Position numbers and translations under genes: made by a program. This document shows, one piece after another, positions 43,136-48,872 of a stretch of 58,045 nucleotides of DNA. The notes below the pieces were generated by a model. It was not told the DNA's origin. It did no database searches and saw only the letters and a list, made by a program, of their open reading frames with translations. Each line of letters starts with the position of its first letter. The stretch's first letter is position 1. This DNA is from Bacteroidota bacterium (GTDB taxonomy: Bacteria > Bacteroidota > Bacteroidia > B-17B0 > Aurantibacillaceae). The DNA lies in the NCBI GenBank assembly GCA_030681615.1, contig JAUXSA010000077.1, forward strand, positions 1 through 58,045, given 5' to 3'.

Positions 43136-43206
43136 CTACTTTTATTGGTTAAATCACTTTACTACAAAGGATTATGTAAAATTTTCTTTATACTTTTAAC
43201 AAATAA

Positions 43207-43800
43207 TTGGAAACCGGTTCTCATATTCAAGGCATACTAAACCCATCCAAATGGGTAGAATTGTACGCCGATTATCTTTATAAGTTTGCCTATTACAGGG
43301 TAAATAACGACGAACTTGCCCAGGATCTGGTGCAGGATTGCTTTTTAGCTGCCTTAAAAGCTATTGAAACATATAGAGGGCAGGCCTCTGAAAAAACCTG
43401 GCTGGTAAGCATTTTAAAAAACAAGATCATCGATCATTACAAAAAAGCCTCTACCCGCAACGAATCGCCGCTGCAATTGAGCACTTATACGGCGCCTTCT
43501 TATGACTATTTTTTTGATAAGGACGCTAAAGGGCATTGGCAAAGTGCTGCCAAACCCAAGGATTGGGCCGTAACCGAAAATAATTTTGATACAAAAGAGT
43601 TTTATAAGACATTAGAAAATTGTTTAGCCGAATTACCTGAAAAGTGGAAAGGTGTTTTCACAATGAGCTTGCTTCATGATGCCGATACAAAATTAGTTTG
43701 TAAGGAATTTGATCTTAGCTCGTCTAACTTTTGGGTAATTATGCACCGGGCAAAGCTGCAAATGCGCGCCTGTCTTGAAAAGAACTGGTTAAAATTGTAA
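43207..43800 (+). CDS. ECF-type sigma-70 factor of the Hvf/bufferin locus
   Basis: 197 residues from TTG at 43207 ('METGSHIQGILNPSKWVEL'). Region 2 is 'YLYKFAYYRVNNDELAQDLV' with 'KTWLVSILKNKIIDHYKKA'; an insert of about 45 residues precedes region 4 ('ELPEKWKGVFTMSLLHDADT', 'LVCKEFDLSSSNFWVIMHRA'). It overlaps the stop of its anti-sigma by one base (TAATG at 43798-43802). The arrangement sigma - zinc-finger protein - DUF692 - DUF2063 is known from metal-stress ECF loci such as the Caulobacter SigF system. It probably drives the genes from 44158 on; that is inference. Confidence 0.88.
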   Translation: METGSHIQGILNPSKWVELYADYLYKFAYYRVNNDELAQDLVQDCFLAALKAIETYRGQASEKTWLVSILKNKIIDHYKKASTRNESPLQLSTYTAPSYDYFFDKDAKGHWQSAAKPKDWAVTENNFDTKEFYKTLENCLAELPEKWKGVFTMSLLHDADTKLVCKEFDLSSSNFWVIMHRAKLQMRACLEKNWLKL

Positions 43801-44078
43801 TGGAAAGTTTAAAAGAACATAAACATAAATGGTACACTTTTGGGTGTAAGGATGCAACCTACCTTACAGTTAAAGGCGAAAATGCCCCACTTTCGTTCTC
43901 AGAAAAAATGTTACTTAACTTTCACTTAATAATATGTAAATATTGCCGTCGGTTTGTAACCCAAAACCATAAAGTAACCCAGCTCTTTAGAGCATCTTAC
44001 GAGAAAAGCGGCTTAACGCTTTCGCCAGATAAAAAGAAGGCTCTAAATCAATTGATTACGAAGAATCTAAAAAAATAA
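43800..44078 (+). CDS. Zinc-finger anti-sigma factor (ZAS type, soluble)
   Basis: 92 residues. Contains the ZAS metal motif His42-xxx-Cys46-xx-Cys49 in 'NFHLIICKYCRRF' and an extra Cys16 that could complete the site. No membrane segment, so it is cytoplasmic and could sense metal or thiol stress directly. Start overlaps the sigma gene by one base, so the two are made together. Function by context and motif. Confidence 0.82.
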   Translation: MESLKEHKHKWYTFGCKDATYLTVKGENAPLSFSEKMLLNFHLIICKYCRRFVTQNHKVTQLFRASYEKSGLTLSPDKKKALNQLITKNLKK

Positions 44079-44087
44079 TAACTTTTT

Positions 44088-44116
44088 TTGTAAGGAATTA
44101 AATCCAATTGCGACTA
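44088..44116 (+). promoter_or_regulatory. Candidate ECF promoter of the precursor gene
   Basis: A GTAAGG (44090-44095) and CGACTA (44111-44116) pair with a 15-base spacer lies about 40 bases before the ATG of the RiPP precursor. It does not look like the housekeeping TAnnTTTG. Shape and spacing fit ECF promoters, but only this one example is available, so it is a guess. Confidence 0.3.
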
Positions 44117-44157
44117 TAAATACGTAAATTCATATAAACCTTTAAACTAACATTAAA

Positions 44158-44529
44158 ATGGAAAAAAAATCAACATTAGTTACTTGCTCAATGATAGCAG
44201 GTGCTTTATTAAGTGTATCAGCTATTACTGCTAACACAAACAGTTTATTAAACTATAACGGTTTGGGAACTGCCGGCGAAGTTCGTACTTCTTTAGTTAA
44301 AACTATCGAATTAAATTGCGGAGAGAAAAAAGACGCAACTAAAACTGATACAAAAACAAAAGATGCAAAATGTGGTGAGCACAAAGATGCAAAAGCTAAA
44401 GACGGAAAATGCGGTGAGCACAAAGATGCAAAAGCTAAAGACGGAAAATGTGGCGAGAAAAAAGCTAAAGACGGAAAATGTGGAGAAGGTAAATGCGGAG
44501 AAAAGAAAAAAACCGATACTCCAAAATAA
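44158..44529 (+). CDS. hvfA: HvfA/bufferin-type RiPP metallophore precursor with six Cys-Gly-Glu motifs
   Basis: 123 residues. Residues ~5-27 are a signal peptide/membrane segment ('STLVTCSMIAGALLSVSAIT'). The rest is a low-complexity core of Lys, Asp, Gly, Cys and Glu with six CGE motifs at Cys54, 72, 85, 98, 108 and 113; the last is the doublet 'GKCGEGKCGEKK'. EGKCG is the conserved core of HvfA peptides. In that family the DUF692 iron enzyme with its DUF2063 partner converts the Cys into metal-binding heterocycles (oxazolone/thioamide or thiooxazole). The gene is followed by a strong terminator, then the maturase. Modification of this peptide is inferred, not seen. Confidence 0.85.
   Translation: MEKKSTLVTCSMIAGALLSVSAITANTNSLLNYNGLGTAGEVRTSLVKTIELNCGEKKDATKTDTKTKDAKCGEHKDAKAKDGKCGEHKDAKAKDGKCGEKKAKDGKCGEGKCGEKKKTDTPK
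44362..44505. repeat. 39-bp tandem repeats in the precursor core
   Basis: Two nearly identical 39-bp units (from the Cys codons at 44371 and 44410) and a shorter 30-bp unit at 44449 encode 'KCGEHKDAKAKDG'. The number of metal-binding motifs can change by slippage of these units. Confidence 0.85.
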
Positions 44530-44545
44530 TCAAAAAATATAAAAC

Positions 44546-44581
44546 TCAACCCCTCTCCAAAAAAGAGGGGTTGATTTTTTT
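44546..44581 (+). terminator. Intrinsic terminator/attenuator between precursor and maturase genes
   Basis: A perfect 11-bp stem TCAACCCCTCT / AGAGGGGTTGA (44546-44556 and 44564-44574) with a seven-base loop and a seven-T run lies 16 bases after the hvfA stop and only seven bases before the ATG of the DUF692 gene. Since no promoter fits between them, part of the transcripts must read through. This gives much precursor and little enzyme, as expected for a RiPP. Confidence 0.9.
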
Positions 44582-44587
44582 AAGATC

Positions 44588-45433
44588 ATGCAGTTAAAAG
44601 ATAATAAACATATAGGAATTGGTTTTAGAAAAGACTTTTCTGAAGAGTTGCTTGATTCAACCATTCTTAAACCGGCTTTTATTGAATTGGCGCCTGAGAA
44701 CTGGATAGGCATGGGCGGCTATTGGAAAAAACAATTAGATAAAGCGGCCGAAAAATTTCCTATCTCCTGTCATGGCCTTTCACTTTCAATTGGAAGCCCG
44801 GATGATCTTGATCTTGATTTTCTTTACAAAATAAAAAAATTCATTAAACAATATAATGTACAGATCTATTCTGAACATTTAAGTTATGCAAAATGCGATA
44901 ACGCACATTTGTATGATCTTTTACCAATACCTTTTAGAAAAGATGCCGTTGAACATATAATTGCGCGCATTAAACAAGTACAGGATATTTTAGAAATGCC
45001 CCTGGCAATTGAAAATGTTTCTTACTACACGCCGGTTGCTGCCGAAATGGATGAAGCAACTTTTATCTCAGAAATTGTAAACGGTTCGGGTTGCAACATG
45101 TTATTAGATGTAAATAATGTGTATGTAAACTCTTTTAACCATAACTATAACGCTAAAGAATTTATAAGCAAATTGCCGCTAAATAAAGTAAGCTATATTC
45201 ATATGGCAGGGCACGAACAGATTTCGGATACCGTAATTATTGATACACATGGCGAAGCGGTAATAGAAAAGGTATTTGAATTATTTGAATATACGACTGC
45301 TTTGCTAAAACCGGTTCCGGTTTTATTGGAACGCGATTTTAATATTCCTGAATTAGAGGAATTGCAAACTGAACTTACAAGAATGGAAACTATTGTTTCA
45401 AAAACGTGGAAGAAAGAACATGTCATTGCTTAA
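44588..45433 (+). CDS. hvfB: DUF692/MNIO family maturase of the metallophore peptide
   Basis: 281 residues. The TIM-barrel of multinuclear non-heme iron oxygenases is seen with its metal-binding set: His62 ('SCHGLSLSIG'), Glu96/His97 ('YSEHLSY'), Glu142 ('AIENVSYY'), Asp174-xx-Asn177 ('LLDVNNVYVN'), His205/His209 ('YIHMAGH'), Asp219/His221 ('IDTHGE') and Glu248/Asp250 ('LERDFNIP'). These enzymes oxidise Cys (and neighbouring residues) of precursor peptides with O2, as in methanobactin (MbnB) and bufferins. The end overlaps hvfC by 14 bases. Confidence 0.94.
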   Translation: MQLKDNKHIGIGFRKDFSEELLDSTILKPAFIELAPENWIGMGGYWKKQLDKAAEKFPISCHGLSLSIGSPDDLDLDFLYKIKKFIKQYNVQIYSEHLSYAKCDNAHLYDLLPIPFRKDAVEHIIARIKQVQDILEMPLAIENVSYYTPVAAEMDEATFISEIVNGSGCNMLLDVNNVYVNSFNHNYNAKEFISKLPLNKVSYIHMAGHEQISDTVIIDTHGEAVIEKVFELFEYTTALLKPVPVLLERDFNIPELEELQTELTRMETIVSKTWKKEHVIA

Positions 45434-46175
45434 AGAATCAACCCGCGAACAGCAATCTAAATTAGCTGAATATTGCAAAACCGGTATTGTACCGGAGTTG
45501 ACAGGCATTCTTGAAGAGAACCTTCATCATTACCGCCGCCTTGTTTTTAATATTGGTATTGATACGATTGAAACAGCTTACCCTATAACGTATCGCTTTT
45601 TGCCGGATGAAGTTTGGGACAAATTAGTTTACGAATTTTACGCAGAACATAAATGCCAAACACCACAAGTTTGGCGCATGCCTTTGGAGTTTTATGAATA
45701 TTGTGTTGAAAAGGACATTCAAGGAAAACTGAACCTTCCTTTTCTTAATGATCTTTTATATTTTGAATGGTTGGAGCTGGAAGTTCATACAATGGACGAC
45801 ATTCCTTATCCGTCTTTTGACACCGAAGGCGACTTGTTAAACAACCTGCTGGCAATAAATCCCGAACATAAATTAGTTAAGTTTACTTATCCTGTACACA
45901 TTTTAGCCGCAACAGAATTGGAGGGAAAAGAAGGCAATTATTTTTTATTGATGTATCGCGAAAAAGAAAGTGGCAAGGTGCAATGCATGGATGTTTCTAT
46001 TTTATACGCTTACATTTTAGAACAAATACAAAATGGTTTAACATTGCACGCTGTGTTAACCGATGCTGATTCTCTCTTTCAAATAAATAATTTTGAAATG
46101 CTGAAAGAGCACGCCATTAATTTTATCAATGATCTAAAACAACGTCAATTTATTTTAGGTTTTTTAAATGCTTAA
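45420..46175 (+). CDS. hvfC: DUF2063-type partner protein of the maturase
   Basis: 251 residues from the ATG at 45420 ('MSLLKESTREQQSKLAEYC'), which overlaps the end of hvfB; an earlier in-frame Met would overlap it more. The N-terminal half is DUF2063 ('RLVFNIGIDTIETAYPITYR', 'FYAEHKCQTPQVWRMPLEF'), with a DUF2063-associated C-terminal half. Such partners deliver the precursor to the MNIO enzyme, as HvfC and MbnC do. Confidence 0.92.
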   Translation: MSLLKESTREQQSKLAEYCKTGIVPELTGILEENLHHYRRLVFNIGIDTIETAYPITYRFLPDEVWDKLVYEFYAEHKCQTPQVWRMPLEFYEYCVEKDIQGKLNLPFLNDLLYFEWLELEVHTMDDIPYPSFDTEGDLLNNLLAINPEHKLVKFTYPVHILAATELEGKEGNYFLLMYREKESGKVQCMDVSILYAYILEQIQNGLTLHAVLTDADSLFQINNFEMLKEHAINFINDLKQRQFILGFLNA

Positions 46176-46177
46176 CT

Positions 46178-46618
46178 ATGATAAATTTTTACAATCGCGT
46201 AAGGAACGGATTAAATAAAGCGCAAGACTTACCCTTACTATTTTTGCGTTTGATATTAGCTTACGGTTTTTGGGAGCCTGCAAAAAATAAATGGGCAGAC
46301 ATTAATGCTATTGCCGAATGGTTTGACGGTATGGGCATTTTTGCCCCAAAATTAAATGCCTATTTAGCAGCCTCAACCGAAATGGCCGGCGTATTTTTAT
46401 TGATCTTAGGATTAGGAACGCGCCTAATTTGTTTCCCATTAATTATTACTATGATCGTTGCTATTAAAACCGTGCATTGGGAAAATGGTTTTCCTGCGGG
46501 AGACAACGGTTACGAAATTCCATTATATTTTATGCTGATGCTAATAACACTGCTGTGTTTTGGTCCCGGTAAATTAAGTATTGATTACCTGATCAGGAAG
46601 AAATTGGATAAAAAATAA
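46178..46618 (+). CDS. hvfX: DoxX-family membrane protein of the hvf operon
   Basis: 146 residues with four membrane segments ('LLFLRLILAYGFWEPAKNKW', 'MAGVFLLILGLGTRLICFPL', 'LMLITLLCFGPGKLSI' and one before). The DoxX fold and position (two bases after hvfC) fit the copper-linked HvfX group of these operons. Probable role: membrane partner in metal handling or peptide maturation. Metal binding cannot be read here. Confidence 0.87.
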   Translation: MINFYNRVRNGLNKAQDLPLLFLRLILAYGFWEPAKNKWADINAIAEWFDGMGIFAPKLNAYLAASTEMAGVFLLILGLGTRLICFPLIITMIVAIKTVHWENGFPAGDNGYEIPLYFMLMLITLLCFGPGKLSIDYLIRKKLDKK

Positions 46619-47514: not shown

Positions 47515-48075
47515 TTGGCAAAAAAACAAACATATAACCAGGACGAACTTATTGACCTGATAAGGCAACGAAATCAACGTGCCTTTACTTTTTTGTATGA
47601 TAATTATTCAAAGGCGTTGTTTGGTGTTATTAATTCTATTGTAAACAGCCAGGAAGAAGCTGAAGATGTTTTACAAAATACCTTTGTAAAGATCTGGAAT
47701 AATTTTTCGAGCTATGACGAATCTAAAGGTAGGCTGTACACCTGGATGCTGAACATTGCCAGAAATTTAGCAATCGATAGCACGCGCTCAAAACATGAAA
47801 AAATAAAGTCAAAGATCCAAAGCACAAGCGACACCGTATATCAGAAGAACAACTTATACCTAAATGACAATGCACATGAATCTATTGGTATAAAAACAAT
47901 TTTAAATACATTAAAAGAAGAGCATAAAATAATTATTGATCTCGCCTATTTTGAAGGATACACGCAAGAGGAAATTTCAAAAAAATTAAATTTGCCGCTT
48001 GGCACAGTAAAAACAAAAGTAAGGCAGGCAATATTAACTTTAAGGGATCTAACGAAAAAAGAATTTTTACAGTGA
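47515..48075 (+). CDS. ECF-type sigma-70 factor
   Basis: 186 residues from TTG ('AKKQTYNQDELIDLIRQRNQ' follows). Region 2 'AFTFLYDNYSKALFGVINSI', 'NTFVKIWNNFSSYDESKGRL', 'TWMLNIARNLAIDSTRS'; region 4 'LAYFEGYTQEEISKKLNLPL' and 'GTVKTKVRQAILTLRDL'. The stop overlaps the GTG start of its anti-sigma by four bases. Pairs of this type in Bacteroidota react to envelope stress. Confidence 0.92.
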   Translation: MAKKQTYNQDELIDLIRQRNQRAFTFLYDNYSKALFGVINSIVNSQEEAEDVLQNTFVKIWNNFSSYDESKGRLYTWMLNIARNLAIDSTRSKHEKIKSKIQSTSDTVYQKNNLYLNDNAHESIGIKTILNTLKEEHKIIIDLAYFEGYTQEEISKKLNLPLGTVKTKVRQAILTLRDLTKKEFLQ

Positions 48076-48872
48076 ACGAACACGAAGTGATATCATCCGG
48101 CTTATTAGAAAGCTACGTTCTAGGCACAACCAGTGTTAAAGAGAATGAACTCGTGCATGAACTTTGCCTTAAAAATCCTTCGCTAACCGATGAAATAGAA
48201 TTAATTGAAGCTGCAATAATAAATTATTCATCCCGATCTGTTGGGCCAATTAATAAAGAAATAAAAAATAAGATCAGGGATAAATTATTTTCCGATACAA
48301 CTATTGAAGCCAAAATAATTACTTTACCTCCAAATGATAAAACAATTCGTGTATATAAATTAAGTTTTGCCGCAAGTATTGTTTTTGTAATTACGAGTAT
48401 TATTTACGTTTTCTCTATTCAAAGCAAACTAAATAAATTGAATGGCGAACTTGCAAAAACAAATGTAGTAACTGCCAACCTTGAAGAACAATTAAGCTCG
48501 CAACAAACGGCATTAATTGTAGCCACTTCTAAACTTCAAATTTTATCCGATCCAAAAATTAAAACAGTTGGTTTAAAGGGGATGAACTCCTTAGCTTCCA
48601 TTTCGGCATTGATACATTGGAATACAGAATCAGATGCCGTTTATTTTAACGCTTCTAAATTACCCGCAACAGCTACAGATAAACAATATCAGTTATGGGC
48701 AATTGTAGATGGAAAACCAGTTGATATTGGTGTAATAGATCTTGTGAACGATTCTACTTTTCAAAAAATGAGATCTGTAAAAGGCGCACAATCCTTTGCA
48801 GTAACTATTGAAAAAACTGGTGGTAGTAATTCTCCTACTATGGATACAATGTGTTTATTAGGGAACGTATAA
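48072..48872 (+). CDS. RskA-type anti-sigma factor
   Basis: 266 residues from GTG, overlapping the sigma gene. Cytoplasmic N-terminal part 'GLLESYVLGTTSVKENELVH' (the usual sigma-binding zone), one membrane segment near 97-117 ('FAASIVFVITSIIYVFSI'), coiled-coil, and the extracytoplasmic RskA domain with 'YFNASKLPATATDKQYQLWA' and 'FAVTIEKTGGSNSPTMD'. It would hold the sigma at the membrane until a signal arrives. Confidence 0.92.
   Translation: MNEHEVISSGLLESYVLGTTSVKENELVHELCLKNPSLTDEIELIEAAIINYSSRSVGPINKEIKNKIRDKLFSDTTIEAKIITLPPNDKTIRVYKLSFAASIVFVITSIIYVFSIQSKLNKLNGELAKTNVVTANLEEQLSSQQTALIVATSKLQILSDPKIKTVGLKGMNSLASISALIHWNTESDAVYFNASKLPATATDKQYQLWAIVDGKPVDIGVIDLVNDSTFQKMRSVKGAQSFAVTIEKTGGSNSPTMDTMCLLGNV

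Follow-up and report, generated by a model that had tools for sequence, protein, structure and literature searches.

This study concerns a window of 58,045 nucleotides (nt), contig JAUXSA010000077.1 of GenBank assembly GCA_030681615.1 from a Bacteroidota bacterium, in which six genes on the + strand fill positions 43207-46618 (Table 1). They encode an extracytoplasmic function (ECF) sigma factor, a soluble zinc-type (ZAS) anti-sigma factor, an HvfA-type peptide precursor, and the proteins HvfB, HvfC, and HvfX. The operon holds two copies of a predicted sigma-dependent promoter element, one of which lies inside the sigma gene itself, where it probably serves the anti-sigma gene behind it. A preliminary description of this DNA had listed the same six genes, including the TTG start of the sigma gene and the six Cys-Gly-Glu (CGE) motifs of the precursor, and profile searches and coordinates confirm this set; the promoter within the sigma gene and a hairpin between hvfA and hvfB were absent from that description.

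Table 1. Genes and predicted elements of the hvf locus (window positions)
Feature	Start	End	Strand	Remarks
ECF sigma factor gene (TIGR02943/RpoE2-like)	43207	43800	+	TTG start right behind an in-frame TAA; PF04542 E=2.8e-18
Predicted internal sigma-dependent promoter	43699	43726	+	TGTAAGG (43699-43705), N15, CGTCTA (43721-43726); exact match; synonymous constraint
Soluble zinc-type (ZAS) anti-sigma gene	43800	44078	+	Overlaps sigma gene by 1 nt; NF052368 50.6 bits (cut-off 50); C16/H42/C46/C49
Predicted sigma-dependent hvfA promoter	44089	44116	+	TGTAAGG N15 CGACTA; exact match; 41 nt ahead of ATG; conserved in relatives
hvfA-type precursor gene	44158	44529	+	Exactly six CGE motifs; NF050137 30.9 bits (cut-off 19.5)
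Terminator-like hairpin and T tract	44545	44581	+	Hairpin 44545-44574, T tract 44575-44581; -18.6 kcal/mol
hvfB, MNIO (DUF692) enzyme	44588	45433	+	PF05114 330 bits; NF003818 (HvfB) 378.2 bits (cut-off 360)
hvfC, DUF2063 partner	45420	46175	+	14-nt overlap with hvfB; PF09836 53.6 bits (cut-off 27.2); PF22106 above cut-off
hvfX, DoxX-family membrane protein	46178	46618	+	NF050144 (HvfX) 123.1 bits (cut-off 80)

On its profile matches, the locus is a member of the HvfABCX kind, with the DUF692 enzyme, the DUF2063 partner, and the HvfA-type peptide all above the cut-offs of PF05114, PF09836, and NF050137, as the preliminary description had expected. The best-scoring NCBIfam model for the sigma factor is TIGR02943 (E=6.3e-45; 153.3 bits, under the curated cut-off of 162.2), and the N-terminus of the precursor looks signal-like by eye. 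Among PDB entries, 3bww (4.1e-70) matches the MNIO enzyme and 3dee (9.4e-6) matches HvfC; for hvfC, the ATG at 45420 is a likelier start than the listed TTG at 45393. The locus does not classify with the Buf1/BufB bufferins, as the precursor has no Pfam match and the MNIO enzyme scores 277.1 bits with NF050167 (cut-off 310). An Rfam scan of the window returned no matches.

This is a genuine gene cluster for a modified peptide that probably binds copper. That the operon has decayed, or that the peptide stays unmodified, is hardly credible: the precursor does miss the cut-off of the HvfA equivalog NF050188 (28.2 of 95), and HvfC that of the HvfC equivalog NF050145 (124.3 bits, cut-off 142), but none of the six frames is interrupted in the window, Gly follows 443 of the 450 C-terminal Cys (those beyond residue 60) of 82 distinct precursors, and many polar residues of HvfB are near-invariant among 85 sequences. 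The modification of HvfA has since been reassigned to 5-thiooxazole (PMC13419390, PMC12668002), which corrects the preliminary description.

Relatives came from two sets that overlap in part. An HvfB scan gave 209 loci, of which the top 80 by HvfB similarity make up L003-L082, mostly from uncultured genomes and named as in their records (L023 as Saccharibacteria); L083-L112 were drawn from 87 genomes of the window's order, 32 of which have an HvfB-like match, 27 above the cut-off. Duplicates were removed by the HvfB stretch for counts of the hvfA element and by the sigma stretch for the resampling of sigma genes. The order sigma, anti-sigma, hvfA, hvfB, hvfC is repeated in most loci fetched, with hvfX rarer, and the cluster is therefore not a chance assembly. 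Sigma and anti-sigma genes adjoin hvfAB in 64 of the 82 distinct loci with a readable region upstream of hvfA (neither gene in 14, only one in 4), and one lineage (L097, L103, L109) has the deviant order hvfA-sigma-anti-sigma-hvfB.

The element inside the sigma gene

The inner element covers the region-4.2 codons TGT AAG GAA TTT GAT CTT AGC TCG TCT AAC (C K E F D L S S S N) and ends 73 nt before the ATG of the anti-sigma gene, in the same orientation. The exact pattern occurs at four places in the window's genome, two of them within the operon, and the reversed control at none. Codon choice at this site is highly uneven among 63 distinct sigma genes, from whose counts L024, L059, and L075 were excluded because the site is unreadable. 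For Lys, 55 of 58 use AAG (background, 22.8%); the second key codon is NCG in 53 of 60 (19.6%), though its residue shifts among Ser, Pro, Thr, and Ala; and the next codon is TCT in 41 of 56 serines (16.9%). Over 171 codon columns, these three codons rank 1, 2, and 3 for synonymous constraint (2.61, 2.04, and 1.64, with the next column at 0.91 and the median at 0.35).

The same constraint is apparent in a larger set, 86 distinct sigma genes with a ZAS gene scored behind them. Within one mismatch of TGTMAGG-N15-CGWCTA are 76 of these genes, 41 of them exact, whereas 2000 runs of synonymous resampling from the genes' own codon usage gave a mean of 3.1 and a maximum of 10. One carrier of an exact inner copy is the cultured species Chitinophaga polysaccharea (L054). 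This set includes a wider phylum sample, in which the ZAS neighbor was scored by a loose motif and 30 of the 44 matches had loci. Codon tests of this kind count related genes as independent, for which representatives below 65% identity are a partial remedy; 41 of 50 such representatives fall within one mismatch, compared to 1.7 expected and a maximum of 7 in 2000 resamplings.

Constraint on the protein, on translation, or on the mRNA could in principle produce such a pattern with no promoter involved, since the C-K-E and S-N residues are conserved and lie within the helix-turn-helix. We consider this highly improbable and, on the codon counts, resampling, and constraint ranks, rejected a protein-level or codon-bias origin. 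Resampling yields far fewer matches than are seen, NCG stays while the residue changes, and the same bases make up the promoter ahead of hvfA, the outer copy, with an A/C variant in common. Among 50 loci whose outer copy has at most 3 mismatches, 49 carry the same A/C base of the -35 motif (GTMAG) in both copies (46 A-A and 3 C-C) and one does not (A-C), although 46 of the 49 agreements are simply A in both; L038 and L068 have an altered -10 motif common to both. Nor is the aligned site kept in Pseudomonadota, where none of nine distinct ZAS-followed sigma genes is within one mismatch (2 in Klebsiella/Enterobacter plasmids, 3, 4, 5, 5, 6 in the gonococcus, 7, 8, and 8). The plasmid loci of Klebsiella and Enterobacter (L205, L220), identical to each other and two mismatches off at the inner site, have a sigma gene and a gene for a small zf-HC2 protein beside msrP/msrQ.

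A second possibility is that the inner element is a real binding site for the sigma-RNA polymerase holoenzyme, unproductive for the anti-sigma gene, that serves to titrate the enzyme as a decoy or to slow it as a pause site. Intragenic sigma sites are often silent, with 5 of 30 intragenic FliA sites in Escherichia coli altering RNA levels (PMC4183435), and in two loci (L190, L199) the inner copy is one mismatch off although the neighboring gene lacks the complete H-x3-C-x2-C motif. Such a decoy nevertheless seems unlikely. The orientation of the element and its distance from the anti-sigma start suit a promoter, and the inner copy is lost both in sigma genes with no ZAS neighbor (L170 and L171, 6-7 mismatches) and under the hvfA-sigma-anti-sigma-hvfB order. 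In three Flavobacteriales (L076, L079, L082) with a short gap between the anti-sigma gene and hvfA and no good hvfA element, a weakened inner copy is retained.

Several observations, including the L190 and L199 copies, weigh against a working promoter for the anti-sigma gene at this site. At least 3 inner mismatches are present in 7 of the 86 ZAS-scored sigma genes (L097, L103, L109, L173, L181, L183, L184). The outer -10 motif is CGTATA, CGTACA, or CGTAAA, with CGTCTA or CGTCAA in the inner copy, in L008, L010-L012, L014-L017, L019, and L020, about ten close relatives of the window, and the two -10 motifs differ in L081 too. With these points counted, we hold with fair confidence that, in Bacteroidota and Ignavibacteriota, the helix-turn-helix codons of this ECF sigma factor contain a working target promoter that transcribes the anti-sigma gene, giving negative feedback without self-activation.

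Upstream of the sigma gene, none of 62 genes has the element within one mismatch, and one (L077) has it at two mismatches; on this count, autoregulation of the sigma gene was rejected. With the element ahead of the anti-sigma gene and not ahead of the sigma gene, the sigma factor would drive its own brake without activating itself. The operon had been called self-regulated, which fits the elements before the anti-sigma gene and hvfA and does not extend to the sigma gene. A possible candidate for what drives the latter is TACTTTTA at 43191-43198, which resembles the Bacteroidota TAnnTTTG element, although some relatives' matches fall in coding sequence.

Inner copies were also seen in other sigma/ZAS pairs. 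L136 and L168 are paralogous pairs retaining the inner element, with L136 followed by a gene for a Cys/His-rich secreted protein that is not HvfA. L187, L194, and L197 are sigma/ZAS pairs with no HvfA within the stretch examined, and they keep the inner element with TGTAATG as the -35 motif.

The predicted hvfA promoter and regulon

The preliminary description had linked the sigma factor to the operon, and the element upstream of hvfA supports this link. TGTAAGG-N15-CGWCTA is found there with at most 1 mismatch in 46 of 82 loci, compared to 0.1% of dinucleotide shuffles. At up to 2 mismatches, it tracks the linked pair, being present in 49 of 64 loci with both sigma and anti-sigma genes and in 3 of 14 with neither (Fisher p=1.8e-4, the four loci with only one of the two genes excluded). 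The consensus deduced by Hopman et al. for neisserial sigmaE is GTMAGBWTT - 12/13 nt - CGTCTAAH, and the gonococcal msrA/msrB start was mapped six nt downstream of such a sequence (PMC2893595). The element described here has the same layout, with a spacing of 12 if GTAAGG and three further bases are counted, so it is very likely that one type of promoter is recognized in both phyla by sigma factors of one kind.

Behind hvfA, 46 of 75 loci have a terminator-like hairpin with a folding energy of -9 kcal/mol or below; the same holds for 1 of 375 shuffles and for 2 of the 59 control stretches that follow the stop codon of the anti-sigma gene. The hairpin would act as an attenuator that favors the precursor over the enzymes.

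We searched 40 genomes of one genus for the exact pattern, with the reversed pattern as a control. The 17 genomes with HvfB gave 48 matches versus 12 in the control, the 22 without it 8 versus 14, and the one genome with only a distant MNIO 0 versus 1. Of the 48, 18 belong by coordinates to the operon itself; of the 30 that are left, 20 lie ahead of genes of five recurrent types. Downstream genes were read at 41 loci plus the window's genome, and tallies over all genomes give a CMAS-type cyclopropane synthase (8), a DsbH-type thioredoxin (5), MsrA (3, in three other genomes, and with one mismatch in the window's own), AhpC/TSA (2), and a secreted protein in which Pfam detects only a sorting tail (5), presumably Omp28/thioredoxin-like. 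For CMAS, PMSR, SelR, DsbH, and AhpC-TSA, one or two representatives of each were confirmed by Pfam. The remaining matches have no common theme save inner sites, two of those in paralogous sigma/ZAS pairs. Twelve more distant genomes, hand-chosen mostly for an intact inner copy, gave 11 exact matches versus 1 in the control, with 6 at inner sites and 2 before msrB (33 and 139 nt).

Some of these data weigh against this interpretation. The hvfA element is absent at up to 2 mismatches from 15 of the 64 loci with both regulators. With one mismatch allowed, the window's genome has 16 matches versus 28 in the reversed control, and because the motif is not enriched at that level, the one-mismatch msrA site of the window's genome is weak alone. 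One genome (G014) has exact matches before regulon genes, yet HvfB was not found in it, an indication that the peptide is not needed for the regulon to exist.

The anti-sigma factor and its signal

The anti-sigma factor has 92 residues, with C16 followed by H42-x3-C46-x2-C49. Among 66 distinct sequences aligned regardless of the motif, all have C49, and 65 each have C16, H42, and C46, which makes these the most conserved positions; the exceptions, L112 and L052, are both short sequences. The arrangement C-x25-H-x3-C-x2-C occurs at exact spacing in 75 of 88 matches, duplicates included. The soluble thiol-based anti-sigma factor of the preliminary description is thus supported by the four zinc-ligand positions, whose spacing is identical to that of the ligands C4, H30, C34, and C37 of MseR and C11, H37, C41, and C44 of RsrA (PMC2893595). 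An AlphaFold2 model shows four helices (predicted local distance difference test, 88.9), and its top two Foldseek matches are to the zinc anti-sigma factor RsiW (5wuq), weakly (E=0.84 and 0.96). A PDB search with the sequence alone found nothing up to E=1, and as a profile the best match was unrelated (E=0.22).

The predicted targets, genes for MsrA/MsrB, cyclopropane synthase, and thioredoxin- or peroxiredoxin-like proteins, suggest that the sigma factor responds to oxidant or thiol stress, and msr genes with a DUF692/DoxX cluster are also the regulon reported for Neisseria and Haemophilus. The preliminary description read the locus as a pathway that buffers copper or another metal, with the anti-sigma factor as the sensor; in a dedicated copper-buffering operon, the anti-sigma factor would sense copper directly. 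Zinc-thiol sites can come under attack by Cu(I). In Haemophilus, copper is bound by peptides of the HvfA type (PMC13419390). A copper signal nonetheless finds no support in the predicted co-targets (msrA/msrB, cyclopropane synthase, DsbH-type thioredoxin, AhpC/TSA), no copper-efflux or transporter gene was conspicuous among the downstream genes read by eye, and Haemophilus RpoE2 responds to hypochlorite (PMC7907618). The observation on efflux genes also counts against our preferred interpretation, and we find direct copper sensing doubtful.

Known systems and the proposed circuit

The components of this locus are already known, and ECF sigma, soluble ZAS, DUF692, DUF2063, and DoxX genes are found together in Neisseria. 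There the sigmaE-MseR operon (NMB2140-2145 / NGO1943-1948) also includes a small secreted precursor, has a promoter of like layout, and counts msr among its regulon (PMC2893595, PMC2954202). Unlike the window, a single upstream promoter is described as autoregulating the whole operon, sigma gene included, and the gene order differs. In the gonococcal locus, we found a promoter of the published type ahead of the operon at one mismatch (L200:1338) and no inner element, with 6 mismatches at the aligned site and 4 in the best nearby stretch. A small precursor with AEGSCG repeats precedes the DUF692 gene (L200:1903-2229), so the gonococcal sigmaE operon looks like an HvfA-type cluster.

Haemophilus influenzae is similar in other respects. 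Its hvfABCX (oxazolin) cluster has an HvfA-type precursor, HvfB, HvfC, and HvfX; hypochlorous acid (HOCl) induces the DoxX cluster via RpoE2, and the small anti-sigma factor HrsE is similar to MseR and RsrA (PMC7907618, PMC13419390). The rpoE2 gene is described as very weakly controlled by itself (PMC7907618), and, unlike here, the hvf cluster lies away from it. ECF sigma genes linked to precursor, MNIO, DUF2063, and DoxX genes are known from bufferin Buf1 clusters (sigma/NrsF) and the Cupriavidus gig operon (PMC12452194, PMC10304878). Buf1 differs in its DUF2282 precursors and the anti-sigma factor NrsF, and Cupriavidus in RsqA, which is predicted to be membrane-bound. Sigma genes have been reported with Buf1 clusters, and the text section on EGKCG/oxazolin clusters mentions none (PMC12452194).

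As for promoters within genes, intragenic sigma-dependent ones are known in E. coli (PMC4183435). The one related suggestion that our searches of the open-licence PMC literature turned up concerns rpoE6-ecfR6 of Sinorhizobium meliloti, where an inner promoter for the anti-sigma gene ecfR6 was suggested; this is one species, of the ECF26 group, the proposal is a suggestion only, and the passage that raises it describes no conserved codon-embedded element. In that literature, we found neither a conserved promoter inside an ECF sigma gene nor a description of an ECF-ZAS-HvfA cluster in Bacteroidota. Within the scope of these searches, three points are new: in Bacteroidota the linkage is standard, a promoter and a regulon are shared across that phylum, and, most notably, a promoter is fixed within the sigma gene.

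We hold with good confidence that the locus is a stress-inducible operon for a peptide of the HvfA/oxazolin type controlled by an ECF sigma factor encoded beside it together with a zinc-thiol anti-sigma factor of the cytoplasm. The circuit that we infer takes in sigma dependence, transcription from the inner site, the signal, the peptide chemistry, and the metal. The anti-sigma factor would hold the sigma factor via the zinc site of C16, H42, C46, and C49, and thiol oxidation or metal displacement there would free it, as the RsrA and MseR systems suggest. Free sigma factor would then recognize TGTAAGG-N15-CGWCTA promoters. The promoter before hvfA, with the hairpin behind it, would yield much precursor and less hvfBCX; the promoter in the region-4.2 codons would drive the anti-sigma gene, so that the brake is made by the sigma factor and the sigma factor itself is not; and further copies would control genes for envelope repair (msrA, CMAS-type cyclopropane synthase, thioredoxin-like). 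HvfB together with HvfC would then act on exported HvfA and turn its C-terminal Cys into heterocycles that bind metal, which by homology are 5-thiooxazoles.

If this is true, the same DNA is read twice, as a recognition domain and as the site which that domain recognizes, and negative feedback is hard-wired in an oxidant/metal stress circuit that has a metal-binding ribosomally synthesized and posttranslationally modified peptide among its outputs. As an example of a regulatory element that coding sequence retains for a stated reason, it would be unusually clean, the sigma gene supplying the promoter of its own inhibitor. The HvfA metallophore family, little explained so far, would in Bacteroidota be tied to a defined regulator, promoter, and regulon, with oxidant or thiol control predicted over plain copper.

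Three further observations stand apart from the operon. In L119, a one-mismatch element, which may be chance, lies 20 nt before a gene that looks like one for a rifampin ADP-ribosyltransferase. A second, distant MNIO is encoded elsewhere in the window's genome (G000:C124:480-1115, L002) in an open frame of 372 amino acids, with 118.6 bits to PF05114. Just downstream of the operon, at 47515-48872 of the window, is a separate pair of genes for an ECF sigma factor and an RskA-type anti-sigma factor, unrelated to the hvf pair.

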